64,000 nt of DNA from Gelidibacter japonicus (lineage in GTDB: Bacteria > Bacteroidota > Bacteroidia > Flavobacteriales > Flavobacteriaceae), in assembly GCF_010725055.1 (NCBI RefSeq), contig NZ_BJKB01000001.1, positions 62,001 through 126,000 on the forward strand, in the 5' to 3' direction. The first letter of the stretch is position 1. Each line of letters begins with the position of its first letter. Both the position numbers and the translations under genes were made by a program. Of this stretch, positions 23,742 to 38,440 are shown one piece after another. The notes under the pieces were generated by a model. It worked only from the letters and a program-made list of their open reading frames with translations, had not been told where the DNA came from and ran no database searches.

Positions 23742-24809
23742 ATGAGTCACAACATAAAACCAGGTGTTGCTACCGGCAAAGAGGTGCAAGCTATTTTTAA
23801 ACTCGCAAAAGAAAAAAAATTCGCATTACCAGCAGTCAACGTCATAGGATCTAACACGATCAATGGAGTATTGGAAACTGCAGCAAAGCTAAACGCTCCG
23901 GTAATCATCCAGTTTTCCAATGGAGGTGCTGTTTTCAATGCAGGGAAAGGCTTGAGCAATGACGGTCAAAAAGCAGCCATAGCAGGTGCAATTGCGGGTG
24001 CAAAACACGTACACCACATGGCTGAAGCTTATGGCGTTCCGGTAATATTGCACACGGACCATTGTGCGAAAAAATTATTGCCTTGGATTGATGGACTATT
24101 GGATGCCAGTGAAAAACATTTTAAGGAAACCGGCAAACCACTCTATAGTTCACATATGATCGATCTATCAGAAGAGCCACTTGAAGAAAACATCCAAATC
24201 TGCAAGGACTATTTGAAACGCATGAGCAAAATGGGAATGACCCTTGAAATTGAATTGGGGATTACTGGCGGCGAAGAAGATGGGGTGGACAATACCGATG
24301 TGGACGATTCAAAACTCTACACGCAACCTTCAGACGTGGCTTATGCCTATGAAGAATTAAGCAAGGTAAGCGATCAATTTACCATTGCGGCAGCTTTTGG
24401 AAACGTACATGGGGTCTATAAGCCAGGAAACGTCAAATTAACGCCGAAAATCCTTAAGAATTCTCAGGAATTTTTATCCAAGAAACATAATCTACCGCAC
24501 AACCATATCGATTTTGTATTCCATGGTGGATCAGGATCAAGCGTTGAAGAAATAAGAGAAGCTATTGGTTATGGGGTGATCAAAATGAATATTGACACCG
24601 ACATGCAATTTGCGTTCATGGGTGGTATTCGTGATTATTTCAAGCAAAATGAAGCTTATTTACAAACTCAAATTGGAAGTCCTGACGGAGAGGATTCGCC
24701 AAACAAAAAGTACTATGATCCTCGTGTATGGTTGAGAAAAGGTGAAGAAACCTTTGTTGAAAGATTGAAAAAGGCGTTTGAAGATTTAAATAACGTAAAT
24801 ACTTTATAG
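23742..24809 (+). CDS. fbaA: Class II fructose-1,6-bisphosphate aldolase
   Basis: This zinc-dependent aldolase of glycolysis and gluconeogenesis cleaves fructose-1,6-bisphosphate to DHAP and glyceraldehyde-3-phosphate. I start it at 23742 (MSHNIKPGVATGKEV, 355 residues), the normal length. The frame is open for 47 more codons upstream, but that stretch has no family similarity. Metal and active-site motifs: ILHTDHCAKKLLPW, the Zn His in AAFGNVHGVYKPG, and DFVFHGGSGSS for phosphate binding. The C-terminal codons EDLNNVNTL-stop form the first part of the 153-bp tandem array that fills the gap to accD. Confidence 0.95.
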   Translation: MSHNIKPGVATGKEVQAIFKLAKEKKFALPAVNVIGSNTINGVLETAAKLNAPVIIQFSNGGAVFNAGKGLSNDGQKAAIAGAIAGAKHVHHMAEAYGVPVILHTDHCAKKLLPWIDGLLDASEKHFKETGKPLYSSHMIDLSEEPLEENIQICKDYLKRMSKMGMTLEIELGITGGEEDGVDNTDVDDSKLYTQPSDVAYAYEELSKVSDQFTIAAAFGNVHGVYKPGNVKLTPKILKNSQEFLSKKHNLPHNHIDFVFHGGSGSSVEEIREAIGYGVIKMNIDTDMQFAFMGGIRDYFKQNEAYLQTQIGSPDGEDSPNKKYYDPRVWLRKGEETFVERLKKAFEDLNNVNTL

Positions 24810-25792
24810 TTTTGCGGAGAATTGTTGGAGCGTCGTTTTTCCAATAAGTAGGAGATAATTATATGAATAGCTCGAAATAATTATAAAATAGCATATAATA
24901 ATAAGATTCCTGCCTTCGCAGGAATGAGGTTTGAAGATTTAAATAACGTAAATACTTTATAGTTTTGCGGAGAATTGTTGGAGCGTTATTTTTCCAATAA
25001 GTAGGAGATAATTATAAAAATAGATCGAAATAATTATAAGATAGCATATAATTATAAGATTCCTGCTTGCGCAGGAATGAGGTTTGAGGTTTTAAATAAC
25101 GTAAATACTTTATAGTTTTACGGAGGATTGTTGGAGCGTTAATTTTCCAATAATTAGGAGATAATTATAAAAATAGATCGAAATAATTATAAGATAGCAA
25201 ATAATAATAAGATTCCTGCCTTCGCAGGAATGAGGTTTGAAGATTTAAATAACGTAAATACTTTATAGTTTTGCAGAGAATTGTTGGAGCGTTATTTTTC
25301 CAATAAGTAGGAGATAATTATAAAAATAGATCGAAATAATTATAAGATTCCTGCCTGCGCAGGAATAAGGTTTGAAGATTTAAATAACGTAAATACTTTA
25401 TAGTTTTGCAGAAGATTGTTGGAACGTAATTTTTCCAATAATTAGGAGATAATTATATGAATAGATCGAAATAATTATAAGATTCCTGCCTGCGCAGGAA
25501 TGAGGTTTGAAGATTTAAATAACGTAAATACTTTATAGTTTTACGGAGGATTGTTGGAGCGTTATTTTTCCAATAAGTAGGAGATAATTATAAAAATAGA
25601 TCGAAATAATTATAAGATTCCTGCCTGCGCAGGAATGAGGTTTGAAGATTTAAATAACGTAAATACTTTATAGTTTTGCAGAAGATTGTTGGAACGTAAT
25701 TTTTCCAATAATTAGGAGATAATTATATGAATAGCTCGAAATAATTATAAGATAGCATATAATAATAAGATTCCTGCCTTCGCAGGAATGAG
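24776..25792 (+). repeat. Seven-copy 135/153-bp tandem array spanning the fbaA stop codon
   Basis: Units begin with GTTTGAAGATTTAAAT at 24776, 24929, 25082, 25235, 25370, 25505 and 25640, giving lengths 153, 153, 153, 135, 135, 135, 153. A partial eighth copy at 25793 runs into the accD promoter. The 18-base difference is the segment ATAGCATATAATAATAAG, or a variant of it. Each unit holds (1) a copy of the last ten fbaA codons and stop, (2) a TAGTTTTG(C) promoter-like box (TAGTTTTAC in units 3 and 6), (3) a stem TTGTTGGA/TCCAATAA, (4) paired ATAATTAT words, (5) a perfect hairpin ATTCCTGC-N4-GCAGGAAT. Hairpins start at 24906, 25059, 25212, 25347, 25482, 25617 and 25770. Confidence 0.95.
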
Positions 25793-25823
25793 GTTTGAAG
25801 ATTTAAATAACGTAAATACTTTA

Positions 25824-25832
25824 TATCTTTGC
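25824..25832 (+). promoter_or_regulatory. -7 box (TATCTTTGC) for accD
   Basis: Exact TAnnTTTGY match 77 bases before the accD ATG. It sits at the point where the last partial copy of the tandem array diverges: the array has CTTTATAGTTTTGC, this copy has CTTTATATCTTTGCC. Confidence 0.5.
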
Positions 25833-25873
25833 CTAATATAAAACTAACTTTCGATTACTTTTTTGAAACTCAA

Positions 25874-25909: not shown

Positions 25910-26767
25910 ATGTCTTGGTTTAAAAGAAAAACAAAAGGAATCACCACTACTACGGAGGAGAAAAAAGACACGCCTAAGGGCTTGTGGTATAAATCTCCAA
26001 CGGGTAAAATTATTGATACTGATGAACTTGAGAAGAACTTTTTTGTTAGCCCAGAAGACGGATACCACGTAAGAATTGGCAGCAAGGAGTATTTTCAGAT
26101 TCTATTTGACGACAACAAATTTAAGGAATTGGATGCCAATTTATCTTCCAAAGACCCCTTAAAATTTGTGGACACCAAGCCCTATCCGGACCGGTTAAAG
26201 GCCGCTGAAGATAAAACCAAACTTAAAGATGCCGTGCGCTGTGCCGTTGGAAAATCCAAAGGAAAAAACATCGTTGTGGCCTGTATGGACTTTGCTTTTA
26301 TTGGTGGCTCCATGGGTAGCGTGGTTGGCGAAAAGATTGCACGTGCAGGCGAATATGCCTTAAAGAAAAAATTACCTTTTGTCATCATTTCCAAATCGGG
26401 TGGTGCCAGAATGCAGGAAGCTGCTTTATCGTTGATGCAATTGGCCAAAACTTCGGCCAAACTCGCTCAATTGGCCGATGCAGGTATTCCGTATATTTCT
26501 TTATGTACAGATCCAACCACGGGTGGTACAACCGCCTCTTTTGCCATGTTGGGCGATATCAATATCAGTGAACCTGGCGCTTTGATTGGGTTTGCCGGAC
26601 CGCGTGTGGTAAGAGATACTACCGGACAGGAGTTGCCCGAAAACTTCCAAACTGCCGAGTTTTTATTGGAACACGGCTTCTTGGATTTTATTACGGAGCG
26701 TAAGGATTTGAAGAATAAAATCAATCAGTATATCGACTTGATTACCAATCAGCCGTTGCGGGTATAA
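25910..26767 (+). CDS. accD: Acetyl-CoA carboxylase carboxyltransferase subunit beta, without zinc-ribbon cysteines
   Basis: This is the beta half of the carboxyltransferase that moves the carboxyl group from biotin to acetyl-CoA, the first step of fatty acid synthesis; 285 residues. The crotonase-like core is intact ([60 protein letters not shown]). In the N-terminal zinc-ribbon region the family usually has two Cys-X2-Cys pairs. Here the matching stretches read [10 protein letters not shown] and FVSPEDGYH, with no cysteine in the first 95 residues. The sequence remains collinear otherwise, so the fold may persist without zinc. A bidirectional terminator follows. Confidence 0.95.
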
Positions 26768-37616: not shown

Positions 37617-37775
37617 TAGCCCACTTATAAACCTCTTCTTGAGAAGAAAAAGACTAACAGGTCTACTTATTATTCTGTATTGAGAAACACTTCAGATGAG
37701 TGCTCTATCTACATTTAAAAGTTTCCCACAGATTCCGCAGATTTTCGCAGATAACGAGCCGGAGGTGGGGTTAAC

Positions 37776-38398
37776 GATTGATGATTGATGATTGATGATT
37801 GATGATTGATGATTGATGACTGATGATTGAAGATTGATGATTGATGATTGATGACTGATGATTGATGATTGAAGATTGAAGATTGATGATTGATGACTGA
37901 TGATTGATGATTGAAGATTGATGATTGATGACTGATGATTGAAGATTGATGATTGATGATTGATGATTGATGACTGATGATTGATGATTGAAGATTGATG
38001 ATTGATGACTGATGATTGATGATTGAAGATTGAAGATTGATGATTGATGACTGATGATTGATGATTGAAGATTGATGATTGATGACTGATGATTGATGAT
38101 TGAAGATTGAAGATTGATGATTGATGACTGATGATTGATGATTGAAGATTGATGATTGATGACTGATGATTGATGATTGAAGATTGAAGATTGATGATTG
38201 ATGACTGATGATTGATGATTGAAGATTGATGATTGATGACTGATGATTGATGATTGATGATTGATGATTGATGATTGAAGATTGAAGATTGATGATTGAT
38301 GATTGATGACTGATGATTGAAGATTGATGATTGATGATTGATGATTGATGATTGTTGATTGTTGATTGTTGATTGAAGGTTGATGATTGAAGATGGAA
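37776..38398 (+). repeat. Giant heptanucleotide array, GATTGAT type, with 77-bp higher-order period
   Basis: At least 88 consecutive 7-bp units (GATTGAT with variants GACTGAT, GATTGAA, GATTGTT, GGTTGAT) run in unbroken register; for example 38343 is exactly 81 units from 37776. GACTGAT units start at 37818, 37853, 37895, 37930, 37972, 38007, 38049, 38084, 38126, 38161, 38203 and 38238, alternating 35 and 42 bases, which gives a 77-bp (11-unit) higher-order repeat. The minus strand is open in all three frames through the array because 7 is not a multiple of 3. That open frame is a by-product, not a gene. Confidence 0.97.
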
Positions 38399-38440
38399 AA
38401 ATGTGAAACAAAAGAAATAAATTGTCAGAAAACTGAGACC

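Follow-up and report, generated by a model that had tools for sequence, protein, structure and literature searches.

A hairpin-containing tandem array between fbaA and accD of Gelidibacter japonicus and one-sided duplications at REP-like hairpins of the genus

Genes and repeat units between fbaA and accD

The analysed stretch of DNA (64,000 bp, called the window in the following) comprises positions 62001-126000 of the first contig of the Gelidibacter japonicus draft genome (4.67 Mb). Within the window, the interval between fbaA and accD harbors seven head-to-tail units, which together span 24776-25792, and a partial eighth copy. The genes and features of this region are given below; accD was named by similarity, the Pfam family itself being Carboxyl_trans.

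23742..24809, plus strand: fbaA, class II fructose-bisphosphate aldolase (ORF; Pfam PF01116, E 1e-84)
24776..24928, plus strand: unit 1, 153 bp
24807..24814, plus strand: TAnnTTTG box of unit 1, overlapping the fbaA stop codon
24906..24925, plus strand: REP-like hairpin of unit 1, 20 nt
24929..25081, plus strand: unit 2, 153 bp
25082..25234, plus strand: unit 3, 153 bp, box altered to TAGTTTTAC
25235..25369, plus strand: unit 4, 135 bp, with an 18-nt gap
25370..25504, plus strand: unit 5, 135 bp
25505..25639, plus strand: unit 6, 135 bp, box altered to TAGTTTTAC
25640..25792, plus strand: unit 7, 153 bp, two substitutions relative to unit 5
starts 25059, 25212, 25347, 25482, 25617 and 25770, plus strand: hairpins of the remaining units, 20 nt each
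25793..25831, plus strand: partial eighth copy, its 3' end being TATCTTTG, the box nearest accD
25824..25831, plus strand: box closest to accD, TATCTTTG
25910..26767, plus strand: accD, acetyl-CoA carboxylase carboxyltransferase beta subunit (ORF; Pfam PF01039)

Unit 1 opens with the final 34 nt of fbaA, and the units follow each other with lengths of 153, 153, 153, 135, 135, 135 and 153 bp. Each of them starts with the last ten fbaA codons and TAG (34 nt, including one extra base in front), over which stop the TAGTTTTGC box is located. The middle of the unit is made up of an AT-rich leader of about 70-88 nt containing a TTGGA...TCCAA stem, and the unit ends with AAG-ATTCCTGCNTNCGCAGGAAT-GAG (AAG in unit 4). 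The hairpin ATTCCTGCNTNCGCAGGAAT is exact in all seven units; with up to three mismatches allowed, 16 matches were counted in the window (each of the seven on both strands, plus two weak sites) compared to 0.09 expected in shuffled sequences. An exact TAnnTTTG box, positioned 31 nt after the unit start, is present in units 1, 2, 4, 5 and 7; units 3 and 6 contain TAGTTTTAC and the partial eighth copy contains TATCTTTGC. In total, accD is preceded by six exact promoter-like boxes. These data bear out the original prediction of seven copies and a partial eighth, of a perfect hairpin in every unit, of an exact box in five of the seven units, and of a repeat that begins inside fbaA and thereby preserves the end of this gene. 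The two predicted unit lengths were found as well, with the correction that they differ by one 18-nt gap adjoining a repeated ATAAGAT; the lack of these 18 nt in units 4-6 is the sole length difference between the units. Three stems per unit, which had also been proposed, were obtained in the minimum-energy fold of unit 5, the one 135-bp unit folded, but not with units 1 and 2, the two 153-bp units folded, which gave a branched structure whose hairpin arms pair elsewhere.

The leader parts of three of the seven units folded better than shuffled sequences (z values of -3.6, -2.9 and -2.3). Comparison of the units disclosed 2 substitutions between units 5 and 7 and 3 each between units 2 and 4 and between units 2 and 6, as opposed to 13 between units 1 and 3. 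The low divergence of the first three pairs fits block copying of unit pairs. Another array lies at 37776-38394 of the window (619 bp, 7-nt unit of the TGATTGA type); its neighbours are the gene of a sigma-70 factor and, as named by eye, an rpe-like gene, and a single minus-strand ORF (37692-38411) reads through it.

Since fbaA and accD are neighbours at all 89 loci compared (the window, eight other Gelidibacter and 80 others), the linking of the two genes is not special to the array. The gap between them measures 1103 nt in the window versus 24-538 nt at the 88 other loci, two of which (L042 and L043) represent genomes already counted under another record. Among the matches listed, the closest named relatives are Gelidibacter species, with an FbaA identity of 96% in G. 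gilvus. In the comparison of one genome per species (G000 for G. japonicus, G002 taken as G. gilvus), the number of hairpins at the fbaA-accD site was 0, 1 or 2 in the relatives, mostly imperfect, versus seven exact ones in the window. In G001 the fbaA tail runs straight into the accD leader without a hairpin. One hairpin with one stem mismatch was found in G004, and G002 contains one full unit, whose hairpin has one mismatch, and a partial tail copy. G005 and G003 have two hairpins each: in G005 a longer loop distinguishes one of them from the exact copy, and in G003 both have enlarged loops along with 1-2 mismatches; in the latter genome the first box copy is broken and the second box is intact despite the decay of its tail copy. 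In G006-G008 an unlike 20-nt hairpin, whose pairing is preserved by G-U changes as judged by eye, occupies the place of the REP-like hairpin. It was considered as a second REP family and rejected, as each of these genomes has a single site at up to one mismatch. The site states do not fit the tree in one simple order of gains, and we therefore make no claim on which state came first.

Promoters of the Bacteroidetes type consist of a TTG at -33 and a -7 box TAnnTTTG. The latter is conserved upstream of accD: all nine Gelidibacter genomes retain at least one box, which in this genus is located at the fbaA stop codon, and the spacing between the last box and accD is equal in the window, in G. gilvus (L029) and in G001 (L035). 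In other genera a box at the fbaA stop was found at only 3 of 78 loci. Nevertheless, gaps of at least 75 nt contained a box in 29 of 41 cases, versus a mean of 5.8 and a maximum of 11 in 100 rounds of shuffling; for gaps shorter than 75 nt the number was 13 of 37. A TTG at the usual distance from the box was not found, the nearest one being situated 26 nt upstream, which is longer than the usual spacing. The retention of the box in Gelidibacter and its enrichment in other genera lend comparative support to the predicted promoter role and make it likely that the box at the fbaA stop is the resident accD promoter, which has been multiplied by the array. The amplification would then have copied a promoter-leader module.

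The hairpin as a dispersed REP-like element

Exact copies of the hairpin occur 47 times in the G. japonicus genome, seven of them in the array. They are distributed over the strands in a ratio of 37 to 10, and the reversed sequence used as control gave none. When unit 1 was taken as query against its own genome, matches beyond the array spanned only the hairpin end, by which the whole unit was rejected as a dispersed element. The hairpin is present in seven of the nine Gelidibacter genomes, and a stricter 23-nt GAG-tagged form was detected in 68 of 299 sampled genomes of the family, own genome included. It is thus a short palindrome with many dispersed copies, a REP in the broad sense, and is mostly located outside genes: by a simple ORF rule, 20 of 147 Gelidibacter hairpins fall within ORFs of 90 aa or more, and in other genera 6 of 69. 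The stem ATTCCTGC/GCAGGAAT, whose constancy is imposed by the search pattern, encloses a loop NTNC with variable positions 1 and 3. Flanking bases are constant on the 5' side, with G in all 147 at -1 and A in 95% at -2; the 3' flank varies in Gelidibacter. An intrinsic terminator was rejected as there is no T run directly after the hairpin on either strand, and so was a known RNA family, the best Rfam match being FtrB with 23-25 bits versus a cut-off of 66.

Comparisons with published systems refer to those parts of the cited papers that were covered. The usual tag in Gelidibacter is GAG (98 of 149) or AAG (32). GT[AG]G, the tag of the GTAG REPs, was not found at the 5' foot of any of the 149 Gelidibacter copies and in only one of 69 from other genera, which were sampled with a GAG-tagged pattern. 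Another class are the CGTC-tagged REPs (dRS3-like), for which Bacteroidetes are among the listed phyla and which are tabled as rarely clustered and without a transposase (PMC3733652). They share with our hairpin the intergenic position and the shape, an 8-bp stem (8-9 bp in the class) starting from AT pairs and a loop of 4 nt (4-5 nt in the class). Unlike them, the Gelidibacter hairpin exhibits neither CGTC nor TGTC in any of its 149 copies (CCTC in 10). Among the 69 hairpins of other flavobacterial genomes (L222-L281), 22 have TGTC, the variant tag of the CGTC REPs, when their 3' side is read on the opposite strand, which hints at a common origin; none has CGTC or CCTC. The string CTGCCTTCGCAGG was not found in the main texts of the papers searched, and none of the REP/RAYT papers among the matches listed deals with flavobacteria by title.

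The 3' foot of the hairpin is frequently located close to a gene. Of 126 such feet in Gelidibacter, 57 are at most 9 nt away from a gene, either before a start codon (21 of 62) or at the stop of an antisense gene (36 of 64), compared to none of 127 nearer than 17 nt on the 5' side; gene calls followed the same simple ORF rule, and orthologous sites were counted apart. The corresponding numbers in other genera were 44 of 61 on the 3' side versus 2 of 62 on the 5' side. At hemH (ferrochelatase) the hairpin, exact or changed, precedes the ATG by 5 nt in G000, G002, G003, G004 and G005. It is absent at this position in the remaining four Gelidibacter genomes, three of which (G006-G008) have unlike stems near the start codon, as seen by eye. 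REPs near gene ends are already known; a strict orientation is not stated in the part of PMC3733652 that was covered.

One-sided duplications at the 3' foot and RAYT-like genes

We aligned the 130 nt after each hairpin to the 900 nt before it, using 147 distinct hairpins of six Gelidibacter genomes (45 of 47 in G000, 60 of 60 in G002, 19 of 19 in G003, 9 of 9 in G004, 5 of 5 in G001 and 9 of 48 in G005, the latter among the matches listed; the single hairpin of G008 was left out). The 3' flank repeated upstream DNA at 50 of the 147 hairpins (score at least 22; best score of five plain shuffles per hairpin, 15.5). At 26 of these 50, which we call first-copy junctions, the upstream copy is by an automatic rule not itself preceded by a hairpin; orthologous loci are included. 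In 20 of the 26 the copied DNA restarts 0-6 nt past the 3' foot, while the other six offsets were 13, 26, 58, 60, 67 and 76 nt. The mirror test, in which the 5' flank was compared with downstream DNA, gave 46 matches and 17 first-copy junctions, only three of which were within 6 nt, two internal to the fbaA-accD array and one at L145. When 2000 positions were drawn at random from these loci, an upstream copy was seen for 86 of them, for 57 at an offset of 0-6 nt. Such copies arise since every point within an array is repeated one unit upstream, for which reason the mirror test is the better control. Around the hairpin, duplications in Gelidibacter are one-sided, which is a new observation.

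Among the first-copy junctions, those of L008, L023, L026, L124, L170 and L184 have an upstream copy behind a half or degenerate hairpin. By our reading there are about six clean independent junction loci. Their genes were named from Pfam, metH and trpB being read from broader families.

fbaA: offset 3 nt
purine nucleoside phosphorylase gene: offset 2-6 nt
beside the dUTPase gene (L123): offset 5 nt
CopA-like gene: offsets 0 and 2 nt
split metH region: offsets 0 and 3 nt
trpF-trpB: offset 13 nt

Similar hairpin arrays are found at unrelated genes, and several are antisense to the neighbouring gene. In G002 (L127) trpF is separated from a trpB-like gene by a hairpin array, and the trpF ORF itself contains an additional hairpin. 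The CopA-like ORFs of G000 (L040) and G002 (L145), which have three HMA domains, contain a hairpin adjoining the repeated N-terminal metal-binding region, where it would encode linker residues. In G003 (L129) the phosphorylase tail, spacer and hairpin occur three times; behind them lie a RAYT-like gene and another hairpin, which is imperfect. In other genera (13 genomes, 60 loci, chosen among the matches listed for the GAG-tagged pattern) an upstream duplication was seen at only 2 of 69 hairpins, with offsets of 8 and 1 nt. This result indicates that the hairpin alone does not cause duplication. Moreover, in G004, G006 and G007 the tail of atpG (named from Pfam and NCBIfam) is arrayed without the REP-like hairpin, so gene-tail arrays can in Gelidibacter also arise by plain slippage. 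These arrays (L217, L219 and L218, respectively) consist of the tandem atpG tail (AEALNN, stop) downstream of atpG; at the same place four other Gelidibacter have the hairpin, exact or changed, and two have neither hairpin nor array.

Matches to the RAYT model NF047646 reached 29-79 bits, which is below its curated cut-off of 80. In the REPtrons of GTAG REPs a RAYT gene stands between cognate hairpins. Hairpins on both sides of a RAYT-like/Y1 gene were found in G003 (L129) and G005 (L130); in G005 this is the same locus as the phosphorylase array of G003. In the window genome a weaker RAYT-like ORF (L040, 29 bits), whose product is 45% identical to the L129 protein, lies near one hairpin just upstream of the CopA-like ORF. 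The seven Y1 matches of this genome have no REP-like hairpin within 1.5 kb on either side, and none was found within about 2 kb of the RAYT-like genes at L036, L038, L039, L175 and L194. In three species a RAYT-like Y1 domain shares one open frame with HemF (oxygen-dependent coproporphyrinogen oxidase): L006 (region of G000:C4:192622-192963), L152 (G002) and L201 (G005), with 492, 499 and 525 aa, respectively. In G003 a Y1 match resides within a 502-aa open frame.

The TnpA-Y1/RAYT proteins of subclass 2.6 from Bacteroidetes have atypical hairpins, not GT[AG]G-tagged, that are copied elsewhere in the genome (PMC6006769, part covered). Host phylum and dispersed non-GT[AG]G hairpins are alike in Gelidibacter, and the proteins of L003 and L005 have WQ and YIHNNP (by eye). 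The L129 gene with NHFH and YIHLNP does not fit this subclass, and the hairpins could be set against the text description only.

Origin of the array and its possible meaning

Amplification of a REP-like hairpin together with its flanks, which the original prediction had favoured as the simpler origin, is well supported by the dispersal of the hairpin and by similar hairpin-anchored arrays at other Gelidibacter genes. We consider it probable that the array was generated by tandem amplification anchored on this hairpin and subsequent unequal crossing-over or slippage, perhaps initiated by a RAYT that cuts at the hairpin foot. The unit would comprise the fbaA tail with the overlapping probable promoter box, the accD leader and the dispersed 20-nt palindrome. 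In a first duplication, DNA 3 nt past the hairpin may have been joined back into the fbaA tail, giving the order tail-leader-hairpin-tail. From there the number would have grown to seven as the copies underwent unequal crossing-over or slippage, and one 18-nt slippage deletion is probably common to the three middle units; this order of events is our reconstruction. As the fbaA end is intact in each copy, the process should be nearly neutral for this gene. One-sidedness could stem from a RAYT-type (Y1) transposase that cuts a single strand at the 3' foot, after which the free DNA end may re-copy upstream DNA. The case for a RAYT step in array formation is circumstantial.

Plain replication slippage or unequal crossing-over, by which the hairpin was included by chance and had no causal role, appears doubtful to us. 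The short repeat beside the 18-nt gap can explain this gap, and both the atpG-tail arrays and the rarity of duplications at hairpins of other genera agree with such a process, but the accumulation of first-copy junctions directly at the 3' foot, with few on the mirror side, speaks against it. We regard it as unlikely that the array is a selected regulatory device, in which serial TAnnTTTG promoters and structured leaders tune accD by copy number. The persistence of boxes throughout Gelidibacter, their enrichment elsewhere, the intact boxes in five units and the partial copy, and the folding of three leaders are compatible with such a device; on the other hand, two of seven boxes are damaged, the distance to the nearest TTG is longer than usual, one or two boxes suffice in the relatives, and similar arrays occur at unrelated genes, several in antisense orientation. 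Less likely still, the hairpin would act as a functional RNA element in the leader of accD, a start-proximal stem with the array following from it and the DNA-element history being secondary, which would agree with the different hairpin at accD and the unlike hemH stems of G006-G008, but not with its absence in G001 nor with the window, where about 120 nt (partial tail copy and other sequence) separate the last hairpin from accD so that it is no longer start-proximal. Returning to hairpin-anchored amplification, any effect on accD would be a by-product; regulation by copy number is possible but unproven.

In the parts covered, REP clusters of Pseudomonas fluorescens SBW25 (PMC3116915) and GTAG REP clusters (PMC3733652) are described as ordered tandem repeats of a palindrome with flanking sequence, some beside a RAYT gene. 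The Gelidibacter array is alike in its tandem repeats of palindrome and flanks, but is built from a single hairpin instead of a doublet, has a different tag, and its unit holds a gene tail and the probable promoter of the next gene. A one-sided junction is not mentioned for these clusters in the covered parts of the two papers. A rolling-circle model for the growth of BIMEs by RAYTs assumes that a REP is cut and the free OH primes replication, resulting in tandem growth (PMC2817692, part covered). Cutting, priming and tandem growth are shared with our proposal; the BIME model starts from REPs on both strands, whereas in Gelidibacter one orientation is enough.

A bolder proposal, to which we attach little confidence, is that the 3' foot of the hairpin is an active cut-and-join site, at which a RAYT nicks and the free end re-copies upstream DNA, forming a one-ended duplication machine in Gelidibacter and perhaps other Flavobacteriaceae. 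If true, such a machine would fuse gene tails and the promoter of the next gene (a coding domain in the CopA-like gene) behind the hairpin, and promoter arrays and domain duplications would be built by hairpin-directed duplication. REP palindromes and tyrosine transposases are widespread; how they reshape neighbouring DNA is in our judgement poorly known, above all in Bacteroidetes. The rule for the start of the one-sided duplications, together with a foot abutting start or stop codons, offers a concrete entry point to the chemistry. Should this view hold, hairpins of this type would locally generate variation in the copy number of promoters and domains at genes of core metabolism.
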